DNA from: Cyanobacterium sp. HL-69
GTDB taxonomy: Bacteria; Cyanobacteriota; Cyanobacteriia; Cyanobacteriales; Cyanobacteriaceae
Direction: 5' to 3'
NCBI GenBank assembly: GCA_002813895.1
Contig: CP024914.1
Coordinates: 1-55,266 of the forward strand
DNA length: 55,266 nucleotides
Both the position numbers and the translations under genes were made by a program. Every line of letters starts with the position of its first letter. Within the stretch, counting starts at the first letter, position 1. Positions 25,844 through 48,775 of the stretch are shown piece by piece. Below the pieces are notes generated by a model. It was not told the origin of the DNA, did not search any database, and saw only the letters and a list, made by a program, of their open reading frames with translations.

Positions 25844-26755
25844 ATGATTCAAACTAACTTGGAGTTGAATCTGTTAGATAACCCTATAAATCCAATCTTT
25901 GCCCGTCATGAAACGTTCCATCCTCGATGGGGATGGTTAAACAAGGGTTTTGCTGCCGTTGATAAAGATAATAATATTTTTCAGGCGGATGATGCCCCTA
26001 TTCGTTTGGGAGTGGGTAAGAATATGGTGAGGAGTATTCGTTATTGGTGTAATGCTTTCAAAGTTACTGACAATGATGATAAACCCTCAGATTTCGGGCG
26101 AAGGTTATTGGGAGAGAAAGGATGGGATAAATATTTAGAAAATCCTGCTTCTTTGTGGTTACTACATTGGAATTTCCTTAAGCCTATTTGCACTGGAACG
26201 TCATGGTATTATGCTTTTAATCTTTTCAATGATACTGAATTTAGTCGGGATGACTTAGTAAATGGCTTGAAGGGTTTTCGGGATGAGATTAAGCCTAATA
26301 TTGCTGATTCTTCCCTTACGAAAGATGTTACTTGTATTTTGAGAATGTATGTGGACACTAATACAGATGGTTTTGTGGAGGACTCCATCGATTCTCCTTT
26401 TGCTGAGTTGGGGTTAATTTATCAACCTCTCAATGCTAAGAATTATCGTTTTCGTTTTGGAAATAAACCCAGTTTATCCCCTGAAATCGTTTTGGCTACT
26501 TGTTTGGAATATGCTAGTTGGGTAAGTGATAATCAGACAACCATTAGTATCAGCCGATTACTTTATGATTATGGTAGCCCTGGTTTAGTTTTCAAGTTCA
26601 CGGAGGAGGCTTTATTGAGTGCTATTGATACCATGATTCGGAAGTATGATAATCTTTTTTTGGCGGATACGGCTGGTTTAATTCAGCTATCTTTTAATGG
26701 TAATCCCCTTGATTTGGCTGATCAAATTCTTGATGATTTTTTTCTAAATAATTGA
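25844..26755 (+). CDS. DUF4007 protein of the phosphorothioation/BREX-like cluster
   Basis: 303 aa. FARHETFHPRWGWLNKGFAA at the N-terminus and the LGVGKNMVRSIRYWCNAFKV segment are hallmarks of DUF4007, a family linked in many genomes to PAPS-reductase-family DNA modification genes. The rest is helical (SLWLLHWNFLKPICTGTSWY). It is the first gene of the cluster, and a partner role in DNA recognition by the sulfur-inserting enzyme is the usual guess. 26756-27183 has no gene; TATAAT at about 26872 could be a -10 box. Confidence 0.82.
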   Translation: MIQTNLELNLLDNPINPIFARHETFHPRWGWLNKGFAAVDKDNNIFQADDAPIRLGVGKNMVRSIRYWCNAFKVTDNDDKPSDFGRRLLGEKGWDKYLENPASLWLLHWNFLKPICTGTSWYYAFNLFNDTEFSRDDLVNGLKGFRDEIKPNIADSSLTKDVTCILRMYVDTNTDGFVEDSIDSPFAELGLIYQPLNAKNYRFRFGNKPSLSPEIVLATCLEYASWVSDNQTTISISRLLYDYGSPGLVFKFTEEALLSAIDTMIRKYDNLFLADTAGLIQLSFNGNPLDLADQILDDFFLNN

Positions 26756-27189
26756 TGGTTTGTAATTGATAATTAATAGTTAATAATTGATAATAATTGT
26801 TAAACAAAAAGTATGGTTTTACCCCCTAAAATCCTTCAAAATTCGTGAACTTTCAGTTATTTAGATTTAGTATAATTACCAATGGCACCGTTTAATTTAG
26901 TTGAAAATCAGTTATTACCTTAAAATCAATTCTTTATCATAAATTATCTTTCATAACAATGCTATACATACCTATTTAACGTTATTTTACAACTATTTTT
27001 TGTTAGTTAAGCTAGGCTTTAAGTGGTAGTCTAAAAATTAGACATTACTTAATTAAACTATTAAATATACTTCCATGATCAAAATAATTGATTATTAAAA
27101 ATATAATCACTATTGACCATTCCCTGTTCCCTATTCCCCATCTTAACCAAAAATATTATCCCGAACTCAAGTTTTTTATACTGATGATT

Positions 27190-30100
27190 ATGAATTTATC
27201 TTCTTATTTTACTTTACAACGTCGTTATGGTCGCTCTATTAATTTAGAAAGGGATTTTAATGATGTTTCAGCTTTGAATGGTTATGTTTTAACGGATAAA
27301 TCTGTGGAAACTTTAAAGCGAATTTTGTTGGGTATTAGCGGGGATAATAAATATAATTGTTGGACTTTGACGGGGGTTTATGGTACTGGTAAATCTGCTT
27401 TTGTTCATTTTTTAATTTCCTTATTAGCTAATAGTAAAAATAAGTTAAAAAAGAAGGCTTTAGGAATAGCTAATAGTTCTTTAAATGATGATATTATTCT
27501 TAGTAATATTCCTGATGATGGCATGGTAAGGGCGATCGCCGTTAGTCAACGAGAAGCAATTAGTTTAACAATTATTCGGGCTTTAATTAATGGATTAAAG
27601 GATATTGGGGGTAAATTATCAAAGGAATTTATTTCTCAATTAGAGGATTTAGAAGGGCGAATTAAGGATAATAAAACAGTACAAAATACAGCTATTGTTA
27701 GCATTATTAAAGATATTCTTTTACAAACCAAAAAAGATATTATTTTAGTAATCGATGAACTAGGAAAAAACCTAGAATATGCCGTTTATAATCAAGGGGC
27801 AGAAGATTTATATTTATTACAACAATTAGCAGAATTAGAAGCGATTGAAGGTAAGAGAATTTACATTTTAGGTATCCTACACCAAGCCTTTACAGAATAT
27901 GGACAAAGATTGGCTACTATTCAACGGAATGAATGGTCAAAAATTACGGGAAGATTTGAAGATATTGCTTTTACTGAATCCACGGGGCAGATGATAAAGT
28001 TAATCTCTGAAGCTATTAGCCCAAATATTGATAATGATTTAGAGAAAAAAATTGACCGATATAGCTGTTATTGGTATCAAAAATTAGAATCTATTTTCAA
28101 GTTAGAAAAAATTGAACAAAGTTTAATTAAAAATATTTATCCCCTCCATCCCCTCAGTGCTTTAATTTTACCAGTCTTATGTGTAAAGTATGCCCAGAAT
28201 GATCGCACCTTATTCACTTTTATCACATCCGATGAGCCTTTTTCTTTCAAAAAGTTTTTAGAGGAGACGGTTATTAAAGATGATAACTTACCTACCTTAA
28301 AACTTGACCAAATCTATGATTATTTTATCTCTTCCGTGGGTATGGGTTTAACAAGGGTGGTAAATTTTCAACGATGGGTAGAAATTTATGACTTAATCAA
28401 CGATGCTAAACACCTCGATGAAGATAGTTTGCGGTTACTAAAGGCGATCGGTTTGCTAAACTTAGTTAGTATTACAGGCATTACAAGGGCAACCCGTAAC
28501 TTAGTCGCCCATAGTCTTTGTGATGGCGATGATGACGATAAATTTAACTATTGGCAAGAAAAAATTGACACATTGTTAAGACAAGGGTTAATTACCCATC
28601 GTAAACAAATTGATGAGTTGAGAATCTGGAAAGGCTCAGACTATAATATTGATGCTCAACTAGAATCTTATCTTAAACAAGAGCAGTCTAGTTTAGCAAA
28701 ACTTTTGTCTCAATTACGCCCTTTAAAACCAATTATCGCCCAGAGGCATAGTTATCAAAAAGGCACATTACGTTATTTTGAAAGACATTATCTTGATTCC
28801 TCTGTTGATTTGACTAACCTTGAGTGTGAAGACAATTCGGCAGATGGTTGGTTAGGTTATTGGTTAGGAGAAGAGATTCCTTCCTCTTTTCCTCAAAAAA
28901 CGGTTAATGGCTTACCTGTTATTTTTATTGCTGCGAATAATTTACAGGTTTTGCGATTACAAGCCCAAGAATTTAGCGCTTTGAATAGGATGAATAATGA
29001 GGCGAAGGAGTTGCAGTCGGATGGGGTGGCAAGAAAAGAAGTGCGTTATCGTCTTATTGAAGCACAAAAGGCTTTGGATGACACTTTAAATAGTGTTTTT
29101 GATTTTAGTCGGGGTGAGTGTCGATGTTGGATTGGGGGAAATTTAACCAAGATTGACAGTGTGAGGGAGTTGAATAGTTATTTGTCGGTGTTGTGTGATG
29201 AAACTTTTAGCAAAAGCCCTATTTTGTGGAATGAGTTGATAAACCGTCGCAACCTTACTTCTCAGGGTAGCAAGGCAAGGAGGGAATTAATTACAGGGAT
29301 GATTAACCACTTTAGTTTACCTAAATTTGGTTTTTCTGGTTATGGCCCTGAGGTTACCATGTATTATTCTTTATTGCAAGAAACGGGTATCCATCGCCCT
29401 ATATCTTCGGCTGAAAATACTCTCAAACCTAGTGATAGTAAAGATTTTGCACTACATACTACCCCCCCCCTACGTAGGTACTACAGATTTAGTGGAAGAA
29501 GAGTGGGGTATTTATGCGCCGATGGGTGGGGATAATCCTAATATAGATGAGGTGTGGAGTGCGATCGCCCTTTTCTGTACATCCGCCACCGAAAATCCCC
29601 AAAATATCGCCCAACTATATCAGAAGTTATCTCTTCCCCCCTACGGAGTAAAAGAAGGAATCATCCCCATAATTCTTACCGCCGTATTACTGTATTACAA
29701 AGAAGAAGTAGGGGTATATCAAGATGGTACATTTATACCAGTATTAGGAGAAGAACATTTAGAATTATTAGTCAAAAATCCCGAACGTTATGCCGTAAAA
29801 TATTTTGCCATAGAAGGATTAAGGGGAGAAGTATTCCAAGAATTAGAAGCTATTCTGCGTAATCCCCAAACCAAAGCCAAAAGTAACATTCGTAACGCCA
29901 CCCTCCTAACCGTTGTCACACCCCTATATCAATTTGTCAAACAACTTCCCCGTTATACCCTACAAACCAAAAAATTAAGCCCAACAGCCCTCAAGATTTT
30001 AACCATTTTACAAAAAACTGCCGAACCTGACGAACTATTATTTAAACAACTACCCCAAGCCTGTAATTTACCCCCCATCACCGCCGACAAAGAAAAAGAC

Positions 30101-30688
30101 GGCATTACCGCTAAAGAGTTAAAAACTCAATTAATCAAAGCATTAAGAGAAATTAACCTCGCCTACGAGAATCTCTTGAGTGAATGTCAATCCTTATTAT
30201 ATTCTGCCTTTGGGGTAAGAAACGAAGCCACAAAACTCAGGGAAGACTTACGGGTAAGGGCATCTTACCTTAAAAATAAATGTGTTGAGCCAATTTTGAA
30301 ACGTTTTACCCAAGCGGTATGTGATGAAACCAAAAATGATAAACAATGGTTAGAGGCTTTAATGATGATTATCGCCGACAAACCAGCGGAATCGTGGAAA
30401 GACGAAGATGTTAGTTTATTTCAAAGTAAACTTGCCGAATTATCCCGTAAGTTTAGTAATTTAGAAGCTATCCAAGAAGAAGTAAAAGTAAAAGGTGAAG
30501 GATTATCCGCCAGAAGGATTACCGTTACCCGCAGTGACGGGGAAGAAACCAATCACATGATATGGATAGATAATCAAAGGGAGTCGGAAGTTAATCAAAA
30601 AGTTGAAGAAATTTTGGCTATGTTACCGAAGGATAAACAGTTAAGGGAGACTATTCTTGCTAAACTTACGGAAAAGATTTTAAAGTAA
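27190..30688 (+). pseudogene. Large BrxC/PglY-like P-loop ATPase, frameshifted at a C9 run
   Basis: Start at MNLSSYFTLQRRYGRSINLE (27190; ATG 27184 is 2 codons earlier). Walker A is GVYGTGKSAFVHF near residue 75 and Walker B is IILVIDELGKN near residue 190. The frame is open to the nine-C run at 29462-29470; there it runs into an unrelated tail, while the true protein continues one frame over (YVGTTDLVEEEWGIYAPMGG) to 30688. With eight C the product is ~1165 aa, the size of BREX ATPases. The HNH gene follows after 4 bp. By size and context it stands in the BrxC place; a firm subfamily call needs profile searches. Confidence 0.82.
29462..29470 (+). repeat. Nine-cytosine tract in the ATPase gene
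   Basis: A run of nine C in an AT-rich gene, at the exact point where the reading frame changes. Loss of one C (or gain of two) joins the two halves. Such tracts slip during replication and can switch a gene on and off; a sequencing error is the main other explanation. Confidence 0.85.
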
Positions 30689-30692
30689 TTTT

Positions 30693-31817
30693 ATGTTTGC
30701 GGATAATAAATCTTTACCTCCTTCTTATTCTCTGAATATTTCAGTTTTAAGTCAATTATTTAACTCCACGACTAACTCCTATAAGTATCTTTTTTTTAGT
30801 GCTTTATTAGACATTTTGGAAAGAAATTTATTTGATTATCAACCAATCCACTTTCGAGAATTAGTCATTGAAATGTTGGCAAATGCTTGGTATCCCCATG
30901 TATTTTTTAAGTTATCTTTTGGTAAACAGGATCAAATTTCTCTTAAGTTAGATAGGCTTAATATACAGTCAGGAAAAGAAGCCATTACAAGAAAAGATGT
31001 ATTAATTTCTATCATCAATGGGTATGATGTGGATGATGTTATTAATAGTTTAATGCGTTATGTTCCTTTTCGTTTAATTAGACCTTTTTTCGCTGAAGAA
31101 TTACGGGGAATAAAAGATGGTGAGGTGAATAGTAGTATTATTATGTTATCGAAAAATTGTTTTAAGAAAAAAAAGCCCTTATATTGCTTTAATTTTGAGA
31201 ATTATAAATTAGTCGATAATATTATTGTTCATCCTGAATGGATTAATTATATCAAGGAAAATTTTGTCATTCTTAAGGGTTGGGTTGCTTGGGAGTGGTT
31301 AAATTATATGCAAAAAAATAATCCTAACAGTCCTAATTTAGCAAGAAAGTTATTTCCTTTAGTACAAAGAAAATCTCTTATTCAACAGGCAAAATACTGG
31401 AAATTAATTATGGAAAAACAGCCTTTAAAATGTATTTATTCCGATAATATTTTGGATAAACATAGTATTTCTGTAGATCATTATTTACCATGGTCATTTG
31501 TTGCCCATGATCAATTATGGAATTTAATTCCTAGTATTCATCATGTTAATTCAGCTAAATCTAATAATATTCCTGCCTCTGATTATTTGGATAAGTTTAT
31601 TAGTTTGCAACATCAAGGTTTAATTATTTCTTCTCAAATTTTACCTAAAAAAAAGTGGTTGAATTATATTGACTGTTATCTAAGTGATTTAAGAATAAAT
31701 GAGCCGAATGATTTATTAAAATTAGAGATTTTGATGAAGGCTTATCAAAAAACTTTTAAACCTTTGATTTCTTTGGCACAAATACAAGGGTTTTCTACTA
31801 ATTGGCATTATGGTTAA
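30693..31817 (+). CDS. HNH-type nuclease of the defence cluster
   Basis: 374 aa. The C-terminal half has the HNH core: CIYSD, then SVDHYLPWSFVAHDQLWNLI and IHHVNSAKSN, giving the His/Asn/Asn-Lys metal site. The N-terminal ~230 residues are helical and may recognise modified or unmodified DNA. It starts 4 bp after the ATPase stop, so co-translation is likely. In this setting it is the best candidate for the restricting nuclease. Confidence 0.82.
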   Translation: MFADNKSLPPSYSLNISVLSQLFNSTTNSYKYLFFSALLDILERNLFDYQPIHFRELVIEMLANAWYPHVFFKLSFGKQDQISLKLDRLNIQSGKEAITRKDVLISIINGYDVDDVINSLMRYVPFRLIRPFFAEELRGIKDGEVNSSIIMLSKNCFKKKKPLYCFNFENYKLVDNIIVHPEWINYIKENFVILKGWVAWEWLNYMQKNNPNSPNLARKLFPLVQRKSLIQQAKYWKLIMEKQPLKCIYSDNILDKHSISVDHYLPWSFVAHDQLWNLIPSIHHVNSAKSNNIPASDYLDKFISLQHQGLIISSQILPKKKWLNYIDCYLSDLRINEPNDLLKLEILMKAYQKTFKPLISLAQIQGFSTNWHYG

Positions 31818-31962
31818 AAAAATTTACAAACTACTGGGGATTACCGAGGGGATTAGTTTTGAGTTCAATTATCTTTGATTTGATAAAAATTCCCCCAACC
31901 GCCCTGAGTTTAATCTTGCTATTCTATGGGTAGAGATACAATTTACTGTTGAAATATAGTTG

Positions 31963-32763
31963 ATGACAGGGAAGAAAACTAGGCACGTTTTAGGGCTTTC
32001 AGGGGGTAAGGATAGCACGGCGTTAGCTATTCTTTTGCATAAGGAAATCCCTGATATTGAGTATTTTTTTTGTGATACTCATAAGGAGTTACAGGAAACT
32101 TACGATTACCTCGATCGCATTCAGGCTCGTTTAGGTATTAAAATAAATTATCTTAGCGAAAAAAGGGGTTTTGATCATTGGTTGGCGATTCATGATGGTT
32201 TATTGCCTTCTCCTCAGATGCGCTGGTGTACGGTGAAAATGAAGATTAAGCCTTTTGAGGAATTTGTGGGAGATGATGAGGCTATCAGCTACATAGGCAT
32301 TCGTGCGGATGAAAATAGGGAAGGTTATATCTCTACAAAACCGAATATTAAGCCCGTTTTTCCTTTCAAAGAAAGGGGTTTGGTAAAGGCTGATATTATC
32401 CGTTTACTGGAAGAAAGCGGTATCGGTTTACCTGAATATTATAAATGGCGTAGTCGCTCTGGTTGTTTCTTTTGTTTCTTTCAGCGCAAGTATGAATGGG
32501 TGATGTTGGCGGAAAATCATCCTGATTTGTTTGCGAAGGCGGTGGAATATGAGTCAAATCATCGGGATGGTAGGACATATACTTGGACTCAAGGAGAGAC
32601 GTTATTAGAGCTTTTAGAGCGTAAAGATGACATCATAGCACAACATCAAAGGGCGATCGTCCGTAAACAAGAAAAAGCACCGAATCGCCCTCTAGCAGAA
32701 GCCTTGGAGTCTGTCTTAGATGAGGAAGATTCAACCCTACCCTGCTTAGTGTGTAATTTGTAA
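31963..32763 (+). CDS. DndC-like PAPS-reductase-family protein
   Basis: 266 aa. The PP-loop motif LSGGKDSTALAI binds ATP or adenylated substrate; DTHKELQETYDYLDRI follows. Cysteines in MRWCTVKMKIKP and the RSGCFFCFFQRKYEW pair are candidates for Fe-S cluster ligands. DndC and BrxP proteins of this family activate DNA backbone phosphate for sulfur insertion. Start ATG 31963 (a TTG lies just before). A DndA-like sulfur donor is encoded at the far end of the cluster. Confidence 0.85.
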   Translation: MTGKKTRHVLGLSGGKDSTALAILLHKEIPDIEYFFCDTHKELQETYDYLDRIQARLGIKINYLSEKRGFDHWLAIHDGLLPSPQMRWCTVKMKIKPFEEFVGDDEAISYIGIRADENREGYISTKPNIKPVFPFKERGLVKADIIRLLEESGIGLPEYYKWRSRSGCFFCFFQRKYEWVMLAENHPDLFAKAVEYESNHRDGRTYTWTQGETLLELLERKDDIIAQHQRAIVRKQEKAPNRPLAEALESVLDEEDSTLPCLVCNL

Positions 32764-32778
32764 TTGGAATTAGGAATG

Positions 32779-33111
32779 ATGCTATTACTATCTCATAGTG
32801 AAATTGAACAACGTTTAAAGATTTCTCTTAATCAACTTTTTGATATTTGTCAACAATATAATATCAAAGAAATGGCTTTATTTGGGTCAATTTTAAGAGA
32901 TGATTTTAATAACAAAAGCGATATTGATTTTCTCATTTCTTTTCAACCTAATACACCTCAAGGTTTACTAACTATTTCTAAACTTAAATCTCACCTAGAA
33001 TCATTACTTAATTATCCCGTTGATATTACGATTAAAGATTCTCTTAAAGACGGTGATAATTGGATTCGTCGTAATGAAATTTTAAACACTGCACAGACTA
33101 TTTATGAATAG
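32779..33111 (+). CDS. mntA: MNT-type nucleotidyltransferase antitoxin
   Basis: About 110 aa. ALFGSILRDDFNNKSDIDFL carries the GS and DxD signature of minimal nucleotidyltransferases. In MntA/HepT pairs this protein blocks the HEPN toxin by adding AMP. ATG at 32779 or 32776 after AGGA. It overlaps the HEPN gene by 8 bp. Confidence 0.85.
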   Translation: MLLLSHSEIEQRLKISLNQLFDICQQYNIKEMALFGSILRDDFNNKSDIDFLISFQPNTPQGLLTISKLKSHLESLLNYPVDITIKDSLKDGDNWIRRNEILNTAQTIYE

Positions 33112-33451
33112 AGATAAGGCTTTTTTACTTGACATTTATAATGCTATTAATCGTATTGTATTATTTTCAAAAGATTTGACAAAATCAGATTTAAAAAGCA
33201 ATGAAGAAAAACAATCCGCTATCCTCTATCAAGTAATTATTATTGGTGAAGCTGTTAAACGATTATCAATAGATTTTCGTAATAGTAATTTAGCAATTCC
33301 TTGGAAAGAAATTGCAGGAATGAGAGATATTCTTGCTCATCAATATGACAAGGTGAATATTGATACTTTATGGGACGTGGTTAATCGTGATATTCCAGAA
33401 TTAAAAATAATGATTAGCCCTTTATTATCTGACTTAATAGATACAACTTAA
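33104..33451 (+). CDS. hepT: HEPN toxin (HepT-like)
   Basis: 115 aa, all-helical. The Rx4-6H motif is GMRDILAHQY (Arg and His six apart), the RNase site of HEPN toxins; VIIIGEAVKRL is the conserved helix before it. It is paired with the MNT gene and lies inside the defence operon between the DndC-like and DndB-like genes. Confidence 0.87.
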   Translation: MNRDKAFLLDIYNAINRIVLFSKDLTKSDLKSNEEKQSAILYQVIIIGEAVKRLSIDFRNSNLAIPWKEIAGMRDILAHQYDKVNIDTLWDVVNRDIPELKIMISPLLSDLIDTT

Positions 33452-33485
33452 ACAAATTTTATAATTTACTGAACTATCTATTTTT

Positions 33486-33596
33486 GGCATTGCTGATTTT
33501 GAGTATGATTTGTATTGAGTACGAATCACTAAACTATTCAATTACTGTTATTTAGAATTGCTAGATTTTTATTCTTATACCTTGATTCAGCAACGC
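33486..33596. mobile_element. IS5/IS903-type MITE with 9-bp target duplication
   Basis: 111 bp with ends GGCATTGCTGAT and ATTCAGCAACGC (inverted). TCTATTTTT stands directly before (33477-33485) and after (33597-33605), a 9-bp duplication as made by IS903-group transposases. The same element in opposite orientation lies at 19041-19160. It separates the HEPN gene from the DndB-like gene. Confidence 0.8.
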
Positions 33597-36094: not shown

Positions 36095-37437
36095 CTTAAA
36101 TTTTGCTGATTATTATGTCTATTTTTTGAAAAATAATCACTTTCTAATATTATTGAACAATTACAAAAAAACAATTATGCACCACATGAATCCCTATCAG
36201 AATGATTTAGTAAATCAAATATTTAGCGACTATTCCATTGATAAAACAAGATTACCCTCTAGCGGATTAAATAAAGTAGGAGTCCCTAGTTTTGTGGCTG
36301 AATGGATACTAGATAAAATTGCACCGGGTAGAGGGGATTTAAGTAATGCAGAACATGACAAGGTGAATAGTTTAGTTATGAAAGCCTTTCCGAGAAAAGA
36401 TGATAAGGAAAGAATTAAGTATAAAGTATATCAGGGAGAAGAATATCAGTTAATTGCTGAATTAAAGGTAAGAATACCCCTCGAAAAGGCAACGGACGAA
36501 ATACAAAAACCCTTGGCAAGTATCCCTATTTTGAACCTTACAGAATGCGATATAGAGCCTGATATTCTTGAAAAATATACCTTATTATTAGGTAGAGGAT
36601 TATGGGGAAAAATTACTCTTAATTATAGTATCAATGAACAGGGAAAATATAACATTAATATTTGTAATTTTGACCCCTTTCAATCTTCAGAAGTAGATTT
36701 AAGATATTATGCCCAGTGTCGTGATAAATTTAGCTTTGAAGAATGGCGAGATTTAATGTTTTGTTCTATGGGTTTAAACCCTGAAGATTCTGCCTATAAT
36801 AATGAGGCAAAAATCTGGGTTTTGAGTAGATTATTACCCCTAGTAGAATCTAATTATCATGTCATGGAATTGGCACCTAAAGGCACGGGAAAAAGTTTCT
36901 TTTATGAGAATGTTAATAATAAGGTAATGGTGGTAAGTGGAGGGAAAATCACGGCACCACGTTTATTTTTTAATGGTAGAACTGGGGAAATAGGTTTATT
37001 GGGTACTTATGATGTCACTGTGTTAGATGAGGTTCAAAGTTTGACTTTTGATAATCCTGATGAAATGATTGGCCCTTTAAAAACTTATTTGGCAAATGGG
37101 CGTTATAATCGTGCGGGGTTTGCGGATATAAGTAGTGATTGTAGTTTGGTATTGTTAGCTAACATTGAATTAGATGCTTATCAACGTCCGAAAAATGAAG
37201 ATAATTTAATTAAAAATCTGCCTAAATTCTTTTCAGAAACAGCTTTGTTAGATCGGCCTAAATAGAAGGTTCGTGTAACGAGGGGCAATCAGTATAGAAG
37301 TACTACTAAAAAGAGGATTTTTTTGTATTGAATGATAAGAAAATTAAATAATAAACATTGCCTAGTTCGTCTTCTTTTAGGCAAAGTATAATGGAAAAAT
37401 ATATGCAACCATAGAGACTTGATGGACATAAGTAATC

Positions 37438-38037
37438 ATGGCTCAACTTTCATTTTCGGCAAAGATTTCAAATCCTCCTCCAAAAAAACTACCATCACTT
37501 GGTAGAGAATATCTGCGTCCATTAGAAGTCCAATCCCTGATTCAGGCTGCCAGAAAAGTAGGTCGTCATCCCCATAGAGATAGTTTGATTATTTTACTAA
37601 TGTTTCGTCATGGACTCAGAACAGCTGAATTAGTAGCTCTCAAATGGTCACAAATTGATTTATCAGAGGGTTATATAGAGATACATAGAGTTAAACAAGG
37701 ACATGATAGTATTCATCCTCTACGTTCACCTGAATTGAGGGCTTTACGTCAAATACAAAGAGATTATCCCGAAACTCAATATGTTTTTGTATCGGAATAC
37801 AAAGCCCCCTTATCAACCAGAACCATTCGTCATATTATAGCCAGAGCTGGGGAACTAGCTAAAATACCCTTTAGAGTACACCCCCATCAACTACGTCATG
37901 CCTGTGGCTACTATCTAGCATCACTGGGCCATGATACTAGAGCTATTCAAGATTATTTAGGGCATAAAAATATTCACCATACAGTTCACTATACCCAAAT
38001 GTCTCCCCATAGGTTTGAGAACTTCTGGAGAGACTAA
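37438..38037 (+). CDS. Tyrosine recombinase (TnpI-like resolvase)
   Basis: 199 aa, only the catalytic domain with a short N-terminus. All active residues are visible: Arg61 (RHGLRTAEL), Lys86 (HRVKQGH), His150 and Arg153 (HQLRHAC), His176 (LGHKNI) and Tyr185 (VHYTQMSP). This FimB/E-like form serves as cointegrate resolvase in some Tn3 transposons. Its start MAQLSFSAK is echoed by a remnant at 52904. Confidence 0.9.
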
Positions 38038-41008: not shown

Positions 41009-41693
41009 AATATGTTTCTCCTTGTAAGTTAATCTTGACCAGAAAAAAGCATAAACGAATTTAGCCTTATAATTTTACCTAATTTTAAATGTACATCAAG
41101 ACATTTTTGTCAACTATTGTTCGTTTAATACATTAGATATACTTATATTTGCTCCATGAAAATAGAATTTTTGTATTGTCAAGAAAAAATCTCTGAAATC
41201 TATGATTAACAAGCATTTCATTCATAGATTGCCCCTGGTTGCACGAACCTTCTATTTAGGCCTAGATCGTTTTGCGGGAATTATTCCAGGGTGGAAAATT
41301 CCTAAGTTTCAATCGAAAATGACGGCTCATCAGATAGGTTTAAAAACTGATTTTTTTGGGGATGCTTTATTAAGTTTGAGGAAGGATAATCGTTTTTATC
41401 ACTATGCTAAATCTCATACTAATTTTATTTCTAAGGTATCTATAAGAGATGAAAATGCAATTTTAAAAAGTGCTTCTGGTTTTTTGAAAATACTTTATCC
41501 TAGCCTTAATTTAACAACGGAGGAGTATTTATTTAATTGTTTAAAACCTGCCCGAGAGTTACGGCAGAATATTCATGGTTTACTGTACAATCTGGATGAT
41601 GAATTTAAACAGTATGAGAGGGATATTATTGTTGATGTGATGTAGGGGTTAAATTCTTATTAATATATTGCTTAATATGGAGATTATTATACA

Positions 41694-43310
41694 TTGAAAA
41701 TATACGATTTACTACTTAACAGTAAACAGAATAAATTAGAGTACTTATTAAGTATTCCTATATTTAATCTTTTAAAATTATCGGATAAAAATTTAACTAA
41801 CGAAGAACAGTTGATAGAGGCATTACTTACTCTATATACTCCAGAAGAGTTATTAAGATCTAAATATCATAGAGATTTAATAATAGAATTTCTTACCCCT
41901 GAACAAGCCAATATTTTAGCCACTGTTTGGGATGCACCCCATGATAAAGATGTATATAAAAGACTAAAAAAAGTAGCCATCAAACAAAACTCGGAGGCAG
42001 AAAAATATTTATTTAATTTCTTTGAAATTCCTGTTTATCGTCAAACAAATATTACTGTAGAAAAATCCTCTTTTGTCGAAATTAGTCCTCAATATCCTTT
42101 GTTCAATCATCAAAGAAATGCCGCTCAAAGGGTGCAAAAATATTTATATGATCCTCCCTATCGAGGACTTTTGCATATGCCTACAGGGGCAGGAAAGACC
42201 CGTACAGCGATGAATATTATTGCGGATCATCTGCGGAATAATGAACCTACTTTGGTGGTTTGGTTGGCGTATAGTGAGGAGTTGTGCGAACAGGCTGTTA
42301 ATGAGTTTGAAAAGGCTTGGGGGTATTTGGGCGATCGCCCTTTAACTGTTTATCGATTTTGGGGAGAGCATGATTTAGCCATAGAAGAAGTAAACGATGG
42401 CTTTGTGGTAGCAGGATTGAGTAAAACCTATAACGCCCTCAAAAAAAGTATCCGCTTTATCAATCAATTGGGGGTGCGTACCTCCTTTGTGATTATCGAT
42501 GAAGCTCATCAGGCGATCGCCCATACCTATAAATTAGTGCTAGATAGCCTCGTCATTCCCTACGAAAAAACCGCCCTACTCGGATTAACCGCCACCCCTG
42601 GACGCACATGGGCAGAAATTGATCAAGATGCCCAACTAGCAAATTTTTTCGCCCAACAAAAAGTAACCCTCGAAATAGAAGGTTATGATAACCCCGTGGA
42701 TTACCTCGTAGAACAACAATACCTCGCCCAAGCCATTCATCGCCCCCTATTTTATGACAGTGTCTTGACACTTACCCCCAAAGACATCCGACGCATTAAC
42801 CAAGATTTGGATATTCCCCCCTACATTCTCCATCGATTAGAAGAAGACGAACAACGTAACCTCCGCATCATTCTTGAACTAGAAGCCCTAACCCACCGTC
42901 ATCATCGCATTATCGTCTTCGCCATCTCCGTTAACCATGCTCAAATCCTCACCGCTGTTTTAAAGTTGAGAGGGTATAGTGCGATCGCCCTTACAGGAAA
43001 AACCCCGAAACCAGAAAGAGAGGCAATTATCAAGAGTTTCAAAGACGACAACCCCGAACCACAAATATTATGTAACTACGGCGTATTAACCACTGGATTC
43101 GATGCACCAAAAACCAGTGCCGCCGTTATCGCCCGTCCCACCAAATCCCTTGTACTGTATAGCCAAATGGTAGGACGAGCTATTCGAGGACTCAAAGCAG
43201 GAGGCAACGCTACCGCCGAAATTATCACCGTAGTCGATAGTCAAATGCCCGGTTTTGGGTCTGTGTCAGATGCTTTTAACAATTGGGAAGACGTTTGGAG
43301 GAAAAACTAA
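41694..43310 (+). CDS. DEAH-box SF2 helicase
   Basis: 538 aa. Motifs: MPTGAGKTRTA (Walker A), FVIIDEAHQAIAH (DEAH), GLTATPGR (motif III), YGVLTTGFDAP and SQMVGRAIRG (motif VI). The N-terminal ~140 residues are a cluster-specific extension. Start is TTG at 41694 with GGAG upstream. The stop overlaps the start of the GHKL ATPase gene (TAATG), so both are coupled. It begins 48 bp after the brxL stop. Confidence 0.9.
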   Translation: MKIYDLLLNSKQNKLEYLLSIPIFNLLKLSDKNLTNEEQLIEALLTLYTPEELLRSKYHRDLIIEFLTPEQANILATVWDAPHDKDVYKRLKKVAIKQNSEAEKYLFNFFEIPVYRQTNITVEKSSFVEISPQYPLFNHQRNAAQRVQKYLYDPPYRGLLHMPTGAGKTRTAMNIIADHLRNNEPTLVVWLAYSEELCEQAVNEFEKAWGYLGDRPLTVYRFWGEHDLAIEEVNDGFVVAGLSKTYNALKKSIRFINQLGVRTSFVIIDEAHQAIAHTYKLVLDSLVIPYEKTALLGLTATPGRTWAEIDQDAQLANFFAQQKVTLEIEGYDNPVDYLVEQQYLAQAIHRPLFYDSVLTLTPKDIRRINQDLDIPPYILHRLEEDEQRNLRIILELEALTHRHHRIIVFAISVNHAQILTAVLKLRGYSAIALTGKTPKPEREAIIKSFKDDNPEPQILCNYGVLTTGFDAPKTSAAVIARPTKSLVLYSQMVGRAIRGLKAGGNATAEIITVVDSQMPGFGSVSDAFNNWEDVWRKN

Positions 43311-45133
43311 TGAATAAACCCCATGATATAGTTCCAGCACATCTAGCCGTTCAAGCCATGCGCGATAACGGTTATAAAAATGCCGCCTATGCCATCGCCG
43401 AGTTGATGGATAATGCTATTCAAGCAGGCGCATCCCAAGTTGAATTACTCTGTGGGCAAAGGATGAAACAATTAACATCCCGCAAAAGCTCCCATATCGA
43501 ACAAATCGCCGTTTTAGACAATGGTTGCGGTATGGATGCCACCGTTTTACGTCTAGCCCTGCAATTTGGTAACGGTACTCACCTAGACAAAGATCAACAT
43601 ACTGGCATCGGGCGCTTTGGTATGGGTTTACCCTCATCATCGATTTCTCAATGTCAAAGAGTTGATGTTTGGTCATGGCAAAATGGAGTAGAAAATGCCC
43701 TTTATACTTACCTTGACCTCGATGAAATCAAAACCCGTCAATTAAACGAAGTACCCGAACCTATTCCGAAATCTGTACCCCATAGATGGCTAAAAGTAGG
43801 GCAAAGTTTTGGTTATAGTGGCACATTAGTAGTATGGTCAAAAATTGACCGTTGTATGTGGCGCACAGGTAAAACCATCATTGAGCATTCCGAGTTACTC
43901 ATTGGTAGAATGTATCGTAAATTCTTGGAACATGACCGAGTTAAGATACGAATGTATGCCTTTGATTTAGATACCCATGGGGAAATCTTGGAAAAATATG
44001 CCCTACCAAATGATCCTCTATATTTGATGAGTAAAACATCTTGCCCTCCTCCTTTTGATAATCAACCCATGTTTCAGCTATGGGAAGGAGATGTAAATCC
44101 AGAGATTACCTTTATTATCAATTTTCAAGGAAAAGATCATGAAGTGAAACTTCGTATTGCTTATGCCACCGAAGAAGCGAGGAAAAGTGAAAATGGTAAA
44201 CTACCAGGGGCATTACCTCACGGAAAACACGCTGCTAAAAATGTGGGGATTTCTGTAGTTCGGGCAGGACGAGAATTGGAATTAGATCAAACTTTGGTTA
44301 ATACTTATGATCCTACAGAGAGATGGTGGGGGGTAGAAGTGGAGTTTCCGCCCTCCCTTGATGATATTTTTGGGGTGACTAATAATAAACAATCTGCTCG
44401 TAATTTTGCTGAAGTTTTAGCCCTTGATATAGAATCCCTTTTAGAAAATGGTAAGACTATTACTCAGTTAAAAGAAGAATTAAGAGAAGATCAAGATCCT
44501 AAATTACCACTACTCGATTTAGCTGACAAAATTAATTCAATCCTAAGTCTTATTAGAAGGTTGATTAAAGATCAAACTAAGGGCGATCGCACTTCTGGCT
44601 TAAAACGTCACGAAAACTATAAACCCCAAAAGGCTGCCACCTATATCACCAAAGAAAGACAAAACAACGGTTATACAGGAGAAAGCGATAAAGATGAACA
44701 ATTACCCAAACAGCAAAGAAAACAAGCTATCCAAGAAACACTAATAGAAGAAGGAATGCCTCCCACCCAAGCGGAATTACTCGCCGCCACCACCGTCGAT
44801 GATGGCTTAAAATATACCTTTGTAGAAGCCTCCCTCGATACCCCGGCTTTTTTCTCCGTCAAACCCAAAGGAGGTGCAATCATCGTCACCCTTAATACCA
44901 AACACCCCGCTTATCAAAACCTTGTGGAAGTTTTAGAGGATAACATTGAAGATGCCGATATAGATACCTTACGCAGTCGTTTAGCTAATTCCTTAGATGC
45001 TCTCAAATTACTCTTGATGGCGTGGGCAAGATACGAAGATGAACAACCCGAAGGAATACGCAAACAAAATGCTCAAGATGCCCGTATTGACTGGGGCAGA
45101 TTAGCTCGACGATTCTTAGAAAATGAGGAATAA
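43310..45133 (+). CDS. GHKL (Hsp90/MutL-type) ATPase
   Basis: 607 aa. The Bergerat fold is clear: AELMDNAIQAGA (Glu31/Asn35), VLDNGCGMD and GIGRFGMGLPSSSIS. The rest is a transducer-like beta region and a charged helical C-terminus. GHKL ATPases clamp on DNA or remodel partners. The ATG shares an A with the helicase stop; GGAGG precedes it. It was started at 43310 because this matches the conserved N-terminus (MNKPHDIVPAHLAV). Confidence 0.88.
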   Translation: MNKPHDIVPAHLAVQAMRDNGYKNAAYAIAELMDNAIQAGASQVELLCGQRMKQLTSRKSSHIEQIAVLDNGCGMDATVLRLALQFGNGTHLDKDQHTGIGRFGMGLPSSSISQCQRVDVWSWQNGVENALYTYLDLDEIKTRQLNEVPEPIPKSVPHRWLKVGQSFGYSGTLVVWSKIDRCMWRTGKTIIEHSELLIGRMYRKFLEHDRVKIRMYAFDLDTHGEILEKYALPNDPLYLMSKTSCPPPFDNQPMFQLWEGDVNPEITFIINFQGKDHEVKLRIAYATEEARKSENGKLPGALPHGKHAAKNVGISVVRAGRELELDQTLVNTYDPTERWWGVEVEFPPSLDDIFGVTNNKQSARNFAEVLALDIESLLENGKTITQLKEELREDQDPKLPLLDLADKINSILSLIRRLIKDQTKGDRTSGLKRHENYKPQKAATYITKERQNNGYTGESDKDEQLPKQQRKQAIQETLIEEGMPPTQAELLAATTVDDGLKYTFVEASLDTPAFFSVKPKGGAIIVTLNTKHPAYQNLVEVLEDNIEDADIDTLRSRLANSLDALKLLLMAWARYEDEQPEGIRKQNAQDARIDWGRLARRFLENEE

Positions 45134-45190
45134 TCATATATGGGTGGGTGTATCTCACCCAAAAACTTTAAAAATATCTTATGGCTAATT

Positions 45191-45520
45191 ATGAATAATT
45201 TAACCAAGAAAAAACAACAAATATTAACAACAGAAATTATTGTAAAAACATTAAAAAATCAAAGTGATTTTTTTGATAAATATGATATAAAAACTTTCGC
45301 CCTATTTGGTTCAACCGCCAGAAATGAAGCCACAGAAAATAGTGATCTTGATTTTTTAGTGGAGTTTAATCATTCAGCAACATTAGATGGCTATATGAAT
45401 TTAAAATTTTATCTTGAAGAATTATTCAATAAATCCGTAGATTTAGTTACATTAAAATCAATTAAACCTATCATTAAAAATTTTATCTTAGCTGAAGCAA
45501 TTTATGTCAAGAAATCTTAA
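45191..45520 (+). CDS. mntA: MNT-type nucleotidyltransferase antitoxin, second pair
   Basis: 109 aa. ALFGSTARNEATENSDLDFL has the GS and DxD signature. Start at MNNLTKKKQQ (45191); the frame is open from 45140. It overlaps the following HEPN gene by 17 bp. The sequence differs strongly from the pair at 32779, so it is an independent module rather than a recent duplicate. Confidence 0.86.
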   Translation: MNNLTKKKQQILTTEIIVKTLKNQSDFFDKYDIKTFALFGSTARNEATENSDLDFLVEFNHSATLDGYMNLKFYLEELFNKSVDLVTLKSIKPIIKNFILAEAIYVKKS

Positions 45521-45848
45521 ACTTTATCTTAATGATATACTTAGTAGTATCAAAAAAATACAATTATATACTGAAAATATAACAGAATCACAATTATTAG
45601 AAGATGAAAAAACATTAGATGCTGTGACTCATAATTTAATGATTATTGGAGAAGCTACTAAAAATATTCCTTCTGAAATAAGACAAGAATATAAATATAT
45701 CCAATGGAAACAAATTATTGGTTTAAGAAACATTATTGCTCATACTTATTTTTCTTTAGATTACGAAATCATTTGGGATATTGTAAGCAATAAAAAGCTA
45801 GATGAATTTAAACAGGTGATTTTAGTTATTTTAAAAAAACAAATATAG
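45504..45848 (+). CDS. hepT: HEPN toxin (HepT-like), second pair
   Basis: 114 aa, helical. The catalytic motif is GLRNIIAHTYF (Arg-x4-His) and NLMIIGEATKNIP is the conserved second helix. It sits between the GHKL ATPase and the PLD gene. Confidence 0.87.
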   Translation: MSRNLKLYLNDILSSIKKIQLYTENITESQLLEDEKTLDAVTHNLMIIGEATKNIPSEIRQEYKYIQWKQIIGLRNIIAHTYFSLDYEIIWDIVSNKKLDEFKQVILVILKKQI

Positions 45849-45886
45849 CAATTATCATGGTTACGGGGTACAAAACGATCCCCCTA

Positions 45887-45913
45887 AATCTCCCTTAATA
45901 AGGGGGACTTGAG
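45887..45913. repeat. Cyanobacterial REP-like palindrome
   Basis: TCCCCCTAAATCTCCCTTAA with the following TAAGGGGGA forms a stem of C- and G-runs around the TTAA. This resembles the widespread cyanobacterial repeat of this type. It may act as a terminator or mRNA end after the HEPN gene. Confidence 0.5.
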
Positions 45914-45959
45914 AATAATAAATGTATCTCATAATTATAAAAAATGCTATATATAATTT

Positions 45960-46892
45960 ATGAATTTTGGTCGTCAACTTAAAAACTTATGCAAAACAGC
46001 CGAAAATGAAATTATTTTAGTTGCTCCCTTTATCAAAAAATCAATCTTCAAAGAACTGTTAGAGTTGACTAATCCAGAAATAGAAATAACCTGTGTAACT
46101 CGTTGGCGTATTGAAGAAATTTTAACAGGAGTTAGTGATATAGAAATTTGGGAAACTATCAAATCTTTCCCTCAAGCTAGTTTATGGTTAAAAAATAATT
46201 TACACGCTAAATATTATCGAGTAGATAAACAATGCTTAATCGGTTCAGCAAATTTAACAGCAAATGCTCTAAATTGGTCAAAGACTCCTAATTTTGAGTT
46301 AATGATTTCTGTTGATTCAGATAATAATGAGTTAAAATATTTTGAGCATCAATTATTTGATAATTGTATTAAAGTAGATCAAGTATTGTTTAATTTATAT
46401 CAAAGTACGCTCGCAAAACAAAAAGAAGCAATACCCTTAAAAATAGATACTGATAATATATATGAATTAGATAATTATCATAATTCAGAAATAGATATAA
46501 TGTGGTTACCTAGTCTAAGAAATCCAGAAGATTTATATTTAGCTTATAAAAATAAATTTAGTCAATTAACTAAAGTTTCTTGGGAAAATGCCATCAAAGA
46601 TTTATCTATTTTTAAACTTCCTCAAAATCTTGATAAGCAAATATTTAATAATTATATTGGGCTTCAACTGTTAGAAAAAACTTTAATACAAAAAATAGAT
46701 AATTTTGTCATCATTCCTCGTAGATTTGGAGAAGTTTGTGACTATCTTCATCAACAAACAGAAGGATATATTAATAATATTAAAATAAAAGAACAATGGC
46801 AAACTTTAATGCGCTGGCTTCTATATTTTTTACCCTCACGTTATGGTTTATCTATACCAAACTACTCAGAAGTTTTTTATCGGCATTATTAA
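45960..46892 (+). CDS. PLD-fold protein with one HKD motif
   Basis: 310 aa. The phospholipase D/nuclease motif is NNLHAKYYRVDKQCLIGSAN (His-Lys-Asp and GSAN). Only one HKD is present, so a dimer would complete the site, as in PLD-type nucleases. The N-terminus (EIILVAPFIKKS) fits the fold. It lies in the defence operon and may be a nuclease or a DNA-end sensor. Confidence 0.83.
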   Translation: MNFGRQLKNLCKTAENEIILVAPFIKKSIFKELLELTNPEIEITCVTRWRIEEILTGVSDIEIWETIKSFPQASLWLKNNLHAKYYRVDKQCLIGSANLTANALNWSKTPNFELMISVDSDNNELKYFEHQLFDNCIKVDQVLFNLYQSTLAKQKEAIPLKIDTDNIYELDNYHNSEIDIMWLPSLRNPEDLYLAYKNKFSQLTKVSWENAIKDLSIFKLPQNLDKQIFNNYIGLQLLEKTLIQKIDNFVIIPRRFGEVCDYLHQQTEGYINNIKIKEQWQTLMRWLLYFLPSRYGLSIPNYSEVFYRHY

Positions 46893-46964
46893 CTAATTGA
46901 ATAACACTTGATGAGTTCTTCAAAATATGAACTATACTTAAGTTAGTCTATTAAACTAAGTTTG

Positions 46965-47204
46965 ATGAAGAATATAGTCAATATACACGAAGCAAAAACA
47001 CAACTTTCCAAACTCTTGTCTAGGGTTGAGAAAGGAGAAAAAATAATTATTGCTAATCGAGGAAAACCAGTAGCTTTTTTAAGCCCTTATATAGAATCAT
47101 CCCCAAATCAACGTACCCCCGGAAGATTAAAAGGGAAATTTACCGTGCCTGAAAGTTTTTATCGATGCGATGAAGAAATTATCAAGTTATTTGAAGGGGA
47201 ATAA
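46965..47204 (+). CDS. Phd/YefM-type antitoxin
   Basis: 79 aa from ATG 46965 (a TTG lies just before it). VNIHEAKTQLSKLLSRVEKG and IIIANRGKPVAFLSP are classical Phd/YefM features; the acidic tail would bind the PIN toxin. The next gene starts 2 bp after its stop. Confidence 0.9.
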   Translation: MKNIVNIHEAKTQLSKLLSRVEKGEKIIIANRGKPVAFLSPYIESSPNQRTPGRLKGKFTVPESFYRCDEEIIKLFEGE

Positions 47205-47206
47205 GA

Positions 47207-47593
47207 TTGAAAATATTATTAGATAGTCATTGCTGGTTATGGTGGTTATTTGAACCTGAAAAATTGAGTAAAATTGCCATAGAGACAATAAGTAGTAGTC
47301 AAAATGAATTATATTTGTCTGTAGCGAGTATTTGGGAAATGGGAATTAAGTTTAAGTTGGGTAAGTTAAATTTGCCTGTATCTCCAGAGATTTTAATTCC
47401 TCAACAAATGCAAATTGATAATATTTTTCCTTTATTTATTTCAGTTGATCATGCTATTACAGCATCTACTTTACCTTTGTATCATAAAGATCCTTTTGAT
47501 CGAATGTTAATCGGACAAAGTCAATTAGAATCCATGATAATCATAACTAATGATTCTGTTTTTAGTTCTTATGATGTTGATATTCTGTGGTAA
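47207..47593 (+). CDS. PIN-domain toxin
   Basis: 128 aa. Acidic PIN residues are in LLDSHCWLWW (Asp6), ASIWEMGIK and DPFDRMLIGQ, with ITNDSVF at the end. TTG start at 47207, with GAAGGGG upstream. Usual partner of Phd/YefM antitoxins in cyanobacteria. Confidence 0.9.
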   Translation: MKILLDSHCWLWWLFEPEKLSKIAIETISSSQNELYLSVASIWEMGIKFKLGKLNLPVSPEILIPQQMQIDNIFPLFISVDHAITASTLPLYHKDPFDRMLIGQSQLESMIIITNDSVFSSYDVDILW

Positions 47594-47638
47594 AAAAAAT
47601 TTCCTAAATAGTTAATGTCAACCATGAGAGAATAAAAA

Positions 47639-48775
47639 ATGTCTAATCCTATCTACCTAGATTATCACTCCACTACCCCAGTCGATCGCCGCTTAATCGA
47701 TGTAATATATGACTCGATGATCGATAATTTTGGTAATCCTAGTAGTATAGATCATCTATGGGGAGATCGCTCCTCAACCGCCATCAAAAAAGCAAAACAA
47801 CAAATAGCTGACTTAATTCAGTGTCATCCCCAAGAAATCATCTTCACCTCTGGGGCAACAGAAAGCATTAATACCGTCATCCAAGGATTAACACCTCCTC
47901 ACCATTTCATCGTCTCACCCCTCGAACATAAAGCCATCATTGATACCTGCGAAGCCATGGTAAAACGAGGATTCGCCCAGATAACTTGGTTGAAAGTAGA
48001 TACTAAAGGGAGAATTGACCTAGAATATCTTGAAAAAGTATGTAGCCAAGGCGCATCCTTACTCTGTGTCATGGCGGCAAACAACGAAATTGGTAACATT
48101 TACCCCATCCAAGAAATTGGTAAAATTGCCCAAAAATATCATATCCCTTTCTTATGTGATGGCTCTCAGGCAGTGGGTAAAATTCCTCTCAACTTTGAAG
48201 ATTGGGGTATTACCTTCTTAACCATTTCTGGACATAAATTATACGCCCCGAAAGGTATAGGTGCATTAATTATCAAACAAGGATTTTCCATCAAACCCCT
48301 AATTTATGGAGGAGGACATCAAAACGGAATGCGCTCAGGTACACTCAATGTATCGGGAATAGTAGGTTTAGGAGAGGCTTGTTATCTCAGACAATCAGAA
48401 ATGACAGAAGATGAAAGGGCGATCGCCCTTAAACGAAATCAACTACAATCATTATTACAAGCCCAAATCCCCTCATTAATCGTCAACGGTGATACAGATA
48501 ACCGCCTCGCAGGAAACCTCCATATATCTATCCCCGATGTTCCCAATAGTGCCATGATTGCTAGGGTAAGAGATAAACTAGCCATCTCCACAGGCTCAGC
48601 TTGTACCTCAGAAACCTTTGCCCCGTCCCACGTATTGAGGGCAATAAACCTAGAAGATGAATTGATAGAAAGCGCATTGAGAATTGGCATTGGCAAATTT
48701 ACCACCCATGAAGAAATAGAAAAAAGTGCAACTATCCTCATCAATACCATCAATCAAATTTGTTTAGTAAATTAA
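47639..48775 (+). CDS. Cysteine desulfurase, DndA/IscS type
   Basis: 378 aa PLP enzyme. LDYHSTTPVDRR is the N-terminal substrate strand, ISPLEHKAI holds the conserved His, TISGHKLYAPKGIG holds the PLP lysine and STGSACTSETFAPS holds the loop cysteine that carries persulfide. It would take sulfur from cysteine and give it to the DndC-like protein. It is the last gene of the cluster, 46 bp after the PIN gene. Confidence 0.92.
   Translation: MSNPIYLDYHSTTPVDRRLIDVIYDSMIDNFGNPSSIDHLWGDRSSTAIKKAKQQIADLIQCHPQEIIFTSGATESINTVIQGLTPPHHFIVSPLEHKAIIDTCEAMVKRGFAQITWLKVDTKGRIDLEYLEKVCSQGASLLCVMAANNEIGNIYPIQEIGKIAQKYHIPFLCDGSQAVGKIPLNFEDWGITFLTISGHKLYAPKGIGALIIKQGFSIKPLIYGGGHQNGMRSGTLNVSGIVGLGEACYLRQSEMTEDERAIALKRNQLQSLLQAQIPSLIVNGDTDNRLAGNLHISIPDVPNSAMIARVRDKLAISTGSACTSETFAPSHVLRAINLEDELIESALRIGIGKFTTHEEIEKSATILINTINQICLVN

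Follow-up and report, generated by a model that had tools for sequence, protein, structure and literature searches.

A candidate restriction cassette of helicase, MORC-type GHKL ATPase and PLD nuclease in an SspABCD phosphorothioation locus of Cyanobacterium sp. HL-69

The contig CP024914.1 of Cyanobacterium sp. HL-69, a stretch of 55,266 nucleotides that is referred to here as the window, carries a defence cluster between positions 25,844 and 48,775. In our reading, which we consider probable, the cluster is an SspABCD DNA phosphorothioation system whose restriction half is a cassette of a superfamily 2 (SF2) helicase, a MORC-type GHKL ATPase and a PLD-fold nuclease. This reading is based on the gene identities, the conserved motifs, the folds and the adjacency of the cassette to sspBCD over many phyla. 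The likeliest overall picture is that a known DNA mark is joined here by a restriction partner which is itself undescribed although its components are known, since the branches in the literature do not include the cassette and the best scores obtained with PADLOC 2.0 are weak (helicase against PbeA, 3.6e-28; GHKL ATPase against MzaB, 3.9e-20). All features are collected in Table 1. Statements on published systems refer to the accessible parts of the cited texts, and genomes, survey loci and contigs are designated by G, L and C numbers where they have to be told apart.

Modification genes

The modification half was assigned by its profile scores to the Ssp phosphorothioation system, and neither to Dnd nor to BREX (bacteriophage exclusion). 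According to the PADLOC models, with which 19 proteins of the window were scanned, SspB, SspC and SspD are found together in one cluster, and phosphorothioation of host DNA by SspABCD is predicted. The initial annotation had grouped ten genes on one strand, brxL among them, into a hybrid of phosphorothioation and BREX. All ten were recovered by profile matches on the plus strand, and most of their identities hold, as does the combination of sulfur modification with nucleases, a helicase and a GHKL ATPase. The hybrid itself is not retained, since the modification genes are those of Ssp and BrxL is broken and not conserved with the rest. The ATPase labelled BrxC-like is SspC, with 1.9e-289 as opposed to 1.2e-95 for the best BrxC model, and both sspC and brxL are split. 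The PP-loop protein, which contains a 3'-phosphoadenosine-5'-phosphosulfate (PAPS) reductase domain (Pfam, 4.9e-14), scored far better with the SspD model of PADLOC (2.2e-114) than with BrxP (1.1e-13) or DndC (3.7e-9), and for the desulfurase the SspA and DndA models are not separable by score. The genes sspB, sspD and sspA and those of the helicase, the GHKL ATPase and the PLD nuclease are open frames in the window.

PglZ, which had been reported as absent, was indeed not matched by PF08665 in the whole genome (2 of 14 controls were positive, and a very divergent PglZ could be missed), nor by PADLOC among the 19 window proteins. The stated lack of dndD and dndE holds for the cluster but not for the genome, in which all matches are located on contig C1. 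These are a solitary dndE at C1:559172-559483 (3.6e-35), close to glmS and to a gene for serine hydroxymethyltransferase, and, at a separate chromosomal site (C1:1688699-1690672), a DndD/PbeC-type ATPase (2.1e-180); DndC was not found among the 8 and 7 neighbouring proteins scanned, respectively. The SspE model gave seven partial matches in the genome, all on contigs C1 and C2 and none on C3, the contig of the window, and the SspF model gave none, though the control genomes likewise gave none. Among the 19 window proteins the models of SspE to SspH had no match.

Helicase, ATPase and nuclease of the cassette

The GHKL protein is supported as a MORC-type ATPase by several observations. The residues of its ATP-binding core are invariant across 55 sequences, and among solved sequences nine MORC2/3/4 entries and SMCHD1 come closest to it, with matches of about 90 positions. 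The structure model (predicted local distance difference test, pLDDT, 84.9; predicted template modelling score 0.66) matches the folds of MORC2, SMCHD1, Hsp90 and MutL. The gene adjoins that of an SF2 helicase, as in the MORC/paraMORC-SF2 systems. At the place of the MORC-specific S5 motif (GhXhhpXXRhl), sequence A1 reads GISVVRAGREL by eye, which is one position off and leaves the subgroup of the protein tentative. The MzaB match covers the N-terminal half and lies under the NCBIfam cut-off; the partners that presumably accompany MzaB in MZA systems were not seen in the window.

In the PLD protein, the residues H82, K84, S96, N98 and E113 are invariant in 45 sequences. Its nearest solved sequence is SauUSI (1.8e-6), which was also ranked first for the structure model (pLDDT 93.6) with 2.8e-7, although a template modelling score of 0.38 and a root mean square deviation of 17 indicate a partial match.

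Association of the cassette with sspBCD

A collection of 84,980 species genomes was scanned for two peptide patterns from the GHKL alignment, and the 79 loci obtained were assigned to nine phyla from the record titles. Their neighbours were annotated by profiles built on the cyanobacterial loci and then extended on the same survey loci. Found from the GHKL protein alone, 66 of the 79 loci contain SspB, SspC or SspD, and so do 44 of the 47 loci that extend for 8 kb or more to each side. The positive loci comprise 22 of 29 in cyanobacteria, 18 of 19 in Pseudomonadota, 8 of 8 in Bacillota, 6 of 6 in Actinomycetota, 5 of 9 in Chloroflexota, 3 of 3 in Bacteroidota (and one with a doubtful title), 1 of 2 in Acidobacteriota and the single loci of Armatimonadota and Chlorobiota (1/1 each). 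The gap between the helicase and GHKL genes is at most 300 bases in 73 of 74 loci with both on the plus strand, and the same applies to the distance from GHKL to a plus-strand PLD gene in 45 of 48; a recheck of the motif HxK...GSxN showed that it is kept in 48 of 50 open reading frames (ORFs) assigned as PLD. Of the 65 loci that have SspB, SspC or SspD together with a GHKL ORF, 46 have the Ssp genes upstream of GHKL on its own strand and 13 have them downstream on the other strand; four have them downstream on the same strand, one has them upstream on the other strand, and one is mixed. The adjacency occurs in at least four arrangements. At L109 from an uncultured Pleurocapsa, GHKL and PLD form one ORF (9989-12646) with SspA directly downstream.

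A fixed sample of 386 genomes of the cyanobacterial phylum, with which the survey overlaps by at least two genomes, was evaluated as well. The GHKL protein was matched in 20 genomes at 1e-10, and a full-length ortholog with at least 64% identity occurs in 13, including that of strain HL-69. For the other 12, the counts refer to the stretches retrieved around the GHKL gene. SspA is found in all 12, SspB and SspC in 11 (those of G131 are on another contig, near its end), the helicase in 11 (shortened in G042 and in pieces in G282) and PLD in six. SspD forms an ORF in nine; that of G131 is on the other contig, G282 has a fragment, and none was found in G195. The loci of G008 and G109, which are the smallest, have the order SspB-SspC-SspD-helicase-GHKL-PLD-SspA, with one additional ORF between SspC and SspD in G109. 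SspD was matched in 39 genomes of the sample at 1e-20, of which 16 have remote matches only (39-51% identity among the matches listed) and 23 an ortholog (22 with at least 65% identity and the fragment of G282); 12 of the 13 GHKL-ortholog genomes fall among these 23 (hypergeometric probability 9e-16). In small genomes of family f31, for example G061, G226 and G003, SspD-like proteins with 39-51% identity occur in several copies per genome, up to six.

The conserved unit consists of sspBCD, helicase and GHKL; PLD is present in most cases and sspA in many. HNH, DGQHR and BrxL are exchangeable additions to this unit, and the complete ten-gene order was found in none of the 12 cyanobacterial relatives.

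Exchange in the sspD-sspA interval

In cyanobacteria the cassette sits inside the interval between sspD and sspA. Eleven genomes have an SspD ortholog and no GHKL gene. Beside SspD, these contain SspE in G205, SspF and SspG in G118, SspF and SspH with one unscanned gene between them in G294, a GIY-YIG-like protein (by eye) with DGQHR in G169 and G227, DGQHR with HNH in G114, where SspB and SspC were not recognised in the stretch examined, a DndB-domain protein in G064 and a DUF262-type protein scoring as NsnA in G004. G185 has DGQHR and an intact BrxL beside sspBCD, the locus of G024 is decayed with HNH and pieces of helicase and SspA, and G011 is the eleventh genome. That sister loci hold SspE (G205) or SspF/G/H proteins (G118, G294) in the same slot speaks for a restriction role of the cassette. 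As a side observation, proteins of 221-228 amino acids at L024 (6807-7469, minus strand) and L023 (6819-7502, minus strand) precede DGQHR and resemble GIY-YIG proteins by eye; Pfam gave no match for two that were tested, and the label follows what we take to be the GIY-YIG motif. In G169 and G227 the GIY-YIG-like protein and DGQHR are the only larger plus-strand genes of the interval.

The locus of G388 (L176/L177), which belongs to the same genus as strain HL-69, holds a second SspB-like protein, a 1566-amino-acid protein, PglZ (6.6e-18) and BrxL in this slot, that is, a BREX type 4-like cassette in place of helicase, MORC and PLD. G388 provides the nearest kin of SspB, SspC, HNH, SspD and SspA of the window (82-98% identity; for SspB and SspC, the decayed locus of G389 is about as close). 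For DGQHR, BrxL and all but one of the four MNT/HepT genes the nearest kin is G185 (80-85%; the HepT protein of the first pair shares only 39%), and for helicase, GHKL and PLD it is G143 (86, 86 and 73%), the plasmid pGM3709_04 of Geminocystis sp. NIES-3709. SspD is 91-98% identical over G388, G143, G185 and G118 despite their differing cassettes. Judged from these similarities, the window locus is a mosaic of cassettes; its genes have three different nearest kin, and it contains two cassettes in one slot, of which the DGQHR-BrxL one is broken by a transposon.

BrxL was found in none of the 12 cyanobacterial relatives with a GHKL gene and in one of the 79 survey loci (L147), with a profile built from three sequences, and BrxL in the window is a broken remnant of another cassette, outside the conserved set. 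HNH and DGQHR form a further exchangeable layer. HNH lies between SspC and SspD in G143, G185, G118 and G388, four related loci of the family that hold sspD, whatever the restriction cassette, and the DGQHR protein shares 82% identity with G185 and 59% with G143. Each was considered as a fixed part of the cassette and rejected, being present in only four of the 12 relatives.

These findings bear on the explanation that SspBCD and BrxL form a BREX-type machine similar to BREX type 4, to which the other genes would be accessories, a view close to that of the initial annotation. The core of BREX type 4 includes homologs of SspBCD as well as BrxL (PMC12839542), and both the G388 slot and the intact BrxL next to sspBCD in G185 are in line with it. 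However, PglZ, which is kept in all 457 type 4 taxa according to the same source, was not found in the genome by PF08665, the PP-loop protein scores as SspD rather than BrxP, and BrxL is split by the transposon and hardly ever accompanies the GHKL gene. We regard this explanation as largely refuted already and give it very little weight.

A poly-C tract in sspC

The break in sspC is located at a run of nine cytosines (C9) in the linker of SspC, a region that differs strongly in length and sequence between relatives. Six of 15 genomes of the family contain sspC, and a C8 or C9 run is at the same place in all six. With C9, as in the window, G143 and G118, sspC is split into two ORFs in each case; with C8, as in G185 and G388, it is one open frame. 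G389 has a C8 run with a frame broken by a different shift in a decayed locus, and it was dropped as evidence for a switch because the break does not stem from the tract length and sspD was not found in the stretch examined. The window has a start codon at 29522, still within the end of the first ORF; in the annotation of G143, the second part forms a gene of its own, 10 bases past the first. Uniqueness of the tract was considered and rejected: the genome has 78 overlapping C8 matches, which correspond to 65 separate tracts, 12 of them with at least nine cytosines, as counted from the matches listed.

We tentatively propose, with less than even confidence, that the tract is a contingency switch of sspC operating by slipped-strand mispairing. 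The break could also reflect transcriptional slippage or a tolerated split of SspC, or it may be an assembly error at the homopolymer. No report on phase variation of any Ssp gene was found in the literature, with subscription papers and preprints outside the search. If the switch exists, it would make SspC alternate between a single fused polypeptide and two split (or truncated) ones and would keep both marked and unmarked cells in the population. A broader proposal, in which the sspD-sspA interval is an exchange platform, the helicase-MORC-PLD cassette a widespread phosphorothioate-dependent restriction branch for part of the orphan sspBCD loci and the poly-C tract a contingency switch, is more speculative still, and we consider it rather doubtful as a whole.

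Proposed function and points against it

In the proposed system, SspABCD would put sulfur into host DNA. By analogy with related proteins, the helicase would work on incoming DNA as an ATP-driven motor, a MORC dimer may close on the DNA as a gate or clamp, and a PLD dimer may nick or cut it after the phosphorothioate state has been read; we infer the order of the motor, clamp and nuclease steps and the sense in which the mark instructs them. Since a broken sspC stands beside an intact helicase-GHKL-PLD cassette in the window and on the Geminocystis plasmid, the data suggest that restriction is activated by phosphorothioate, as with SspE or Pbe, and does not harm unmarked cells as SspFGH would.

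Several points weigh against the cassette being the restriction half of an SspABCD system. The sspC frame is broken in the window itself, and G118 pairs a C9 sspC with SspF and SspG, a poor fit to the idea that C9 abolishes SspC. Between the distances of GHKL and those of SspD there is only a moderate correlation (rho 0.34), as opposed to 0.80 for GHKL and helicase and 0.77 for SspD and SspC, which indicates that modification genes and cassette recombine. A correlation of GHKL and PLD (rho 0.05) was discarded, as the PLD profile had probably absorbed the GHKL-PLD fusion. In the survey, the peptide patterns are tied to this GHKL family, so that remoter relatives are outside the sample, and the adjacency counts stand without a matched control by another defence gene. 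Three of the 47 fully flanked loci (L109, L111 and L135) lack sspBCD. PLD is absent from 19 of the 65 loci with SspB, SspC or SspD and a GHKL ORF, and 10 of these 19 have HNH. Ten Nostocales loci (L094-L098, L100-L103, L166) with an HNH gene upstream of the helicase, in none of which PLD was assigned, have a helicase without its N-terminal part, with the match starting at profile position 183-185 in seven and at 198-219 in three. Because of the loci without PLD and these shortened helicases, helicase and PLD are not regarded as obligatory.

Helicase, GHKL and PLD might instead constitute a stand-alone defence that gathers in the same defence islands as sspBCD. Helicase-GHKL pairs without sspBCD with full flanks, in Microcoleus (L111) and Chloroflexota (L135), fit this explanation and likewise count against ours; similar pairs occur at L110, L114, L134 and L138 on shorter or one-sided stretches, and the partial decoupling of distances points in the same direction. 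Independent neighbours would, however, hardly be expected from an adjacency in 44 of 47 loci in at least four arrangements, nor from a cyanobacterial cassette inside the very interval where other loci hold SspE or SspF/G/H, and we consider this unlikely.

MutL-type ATPases, RadD-like helicases and PLD enzymes are known to act in repair too. The cassette might accordingly service phosphorothioated DNA by repair, removal or tuning of the mark without restricting, and DndB proteins have been reported as regulators of modification (PMC10853773). As opposed to this, the cassette occupies the slot of known restriction modules, and the combination of PLD and SF2 helicase is the architecture of the protective PbeA and SauUSI (PMC6459918, PMC7913695). 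We judge a pure service role improbable, somewhat more so than independent neighbours, and retain the restriction cassette as our preferred reading.

Comparison with known systems

The locus shares the modification genes sspA-D and the slot beside sspBCD with SspABCD-SspE and SspABCD-SspFGH, but its restriction genes, MORC, helicase and PLD, are unrelated to theirs. With the archaeal DndCDEA-PbeABCD it has in common the PbeA match of the helicase; however, PLD and SF2 helicase are joined in one protein in PbeA, PbeC is an SMC-like ATPase, and the neighbours are Dnd genes (PMC6459918), whereas PLD and helicase are separate genes in the window, together with a MORC-type GHKL ATPase and Ssp neighbours. 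A 2025 review lists the branches dndFGH/sspFGH, sspE and pbeABCD (PMC12707154), and DndI is described as an additional restriction partner (PMC11662687). Rakesh (2024, PMC10853773) describes fusions of HKD and SF2 helicase as well as HNH and GIY-YIG nucleases recruited beside the phosphorothioation module, in that case Dnd rather than Ssp, and MORC and GHKL are unmentioned in the accessible text. No description of Ssp paired with a GHKL/MORC-helicase-PLD cassette was found in a literature search with the same scope as above.

Systems of MORC, helicase and nuclease with DNA methylases were predicted by Iyer et al. (2008, PMC2292703). These prokaryotic MORC/paraMORC-SF2 restriction-modification systems likewise combine a MORC-type GHKL ATPase, an SF2 helicase and a nuclease in one operon, but neither PAPS reductase nor phosphorothioation is seen in the accessible parts of that work. 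The methylase partner is frequent there and not universal, and no DNA methylase was present among the cluster proteins scanned in Pfam, the remaining ORFs of the window being covered in part. By analogy, phosphorothioation would take over the role of the methylase.

PLD nucleases are coupled to an SF2 motor in SauUSI, CglI and NgoAVII too, the PLD protein of the window being nearest to SauUSI, in which the SF2 motor translocates and the PLD domain cuts. These enzymes have target-recognition domains of their own, and the domains described for them do not include a GHKL ATPase (PMC7913695). GHKL ATPases also occur in tested or named anti-phage systems, such as VcSduA (a Shedu protein with a GHKL domain, paraMORC3) and MzaB of MZA. 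In VcSduA, a GHKL-nuclease fusion, the GHKL site is needed for phage defence; it has its own nuclease domain, and phosphorothioation genes are not described with it in the accessible text (PMC12137116). BREX type 4 shares with the window the SspB/C/D homologs, the cysteine desulfurase and BrxL, but the window has no detected PglZ and its BrxL pieces are not conserved with the cassette. The earlier view that the layout departs from those described for Dnd and for BREX type 4 is upheld.

According to Wang et al. (2021, PMC8092258), 2,211 of 2,678 sspBCD loci are without SspE and SspFGH, and further restriction partners were asked about. The cassette is a concrete candidate answer for part of these orphan loci. 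If this is correct, the action of MORC-type ATPases, which are relatives of eukaryotic chromatin proteins, on DNA could be studied in a prokaryote and with a DNA mark that is defined.

Further genes of the cluster and the window

The cluster also contains two pairs of MNT/HepT type and one PHD/PIN pair (Table 1), which are not in the gene list of the initial annotation.

Table 1. Features of the defence cluster and its upstream neighbour in the window.
Feature	Position	Strand	Match and remarks
DUF4011-helicase-MTES_1575 nuclease protein, 1546 aa	21009-25649		PADLOC candidate PDC-S37, 1202 bits; directly upstream of sspB
SspB (DUF4007), predicted DNA-binding subunit of the phosphorothioation complex	25844..26755	+	PADLOC SspB 3.5e-119; PF13182 6.5e-100
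SspC, N-terminal part (ATPase)	27088..29535	+	PADLOC SspC 1.9e-289, profile 2-737 of 1104; goes out of frame just past the C9 tract
SspC, C-terminal part	29327..30688	+	PADLOC SspC 4.8e-147, profile 737-1104 of 1104; conserved from about 29492, possible start 29522
C9 homopolymer in SspC linker	29462..29470	+	Site of frame break
HNH (HNH_4) endonuclease protein	30693..31817	+	PF13395 2e-9
SspD (PP-loop/PAPS-reductase-family sulfurtransferase)	31960..32763	+	PADLOC SspD 2.2e-114
Nucleotidyltransferase (MNT)/HepT-like pair	32764..33451	+	PF01909 1.7e-13; PF01934 1.3e-25
DGQHR/DndB-like protein, 786 aa	33734..36094	+	PF14072 5.5e-9
BrxL, N-terminal part, interrupted	36066..37265	+	PF13337 3.5e-68
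Tn3-family transposon in brxL	37255..41262		36-nt terminal inverted repeats at 37255-37290 and 41227-41262
Tyrosine recombinase of the Tn3-family element	37438-38037	+	
Tn3-family transposase	38034-41008	-	Two overlapping frames, Pfam profile 1-148 and 148-389
BrxL, C-terminal part	41202..41645	+	PF13337 2.1e-30, profile 178-311 of 313
SF2 (DEAD/ResIII) helicase	41694..43310	+	PF04851 1.8e-22; PADLOC PbeA 3.6e-28; NCBIfam RadD 2.7e-35 (below cut-off)
MORC-type GHKL ATPase	43283..45133 (probable start 43310)	+	HATPase_c_3 PF13589 4.5e-20
Second nucleotidyltransferase/HepT-like pair	45140..45848	+	First gene PADLOC PDC-S09 1.7e-29; second gene by similarity only
PLD-fold nuclease, HKD-type motif	45960..46892	+	PLDc_2 PF13091 7e-7
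PHD-like/PIN toxin-antitoxin pair	46962..47593	+	PIN gene PF01850 6e-12; PHD by eye
SspA/DndA-type cysteine desulfurase, class V aminotransferase	47639..48775	+	PADLOC DndA 2.6e-134, SspA 6.2e-134

Scans of the window with Rfam and for tRNA genes gave no matches. A MobA/VirD2-type relaxase and a resolvase are located at 5891-7099 and 52096-52782, and because of these two genes and the kinship with the Geminocystis plasmid, the window, contig C3 of three, is probably a plasmid.

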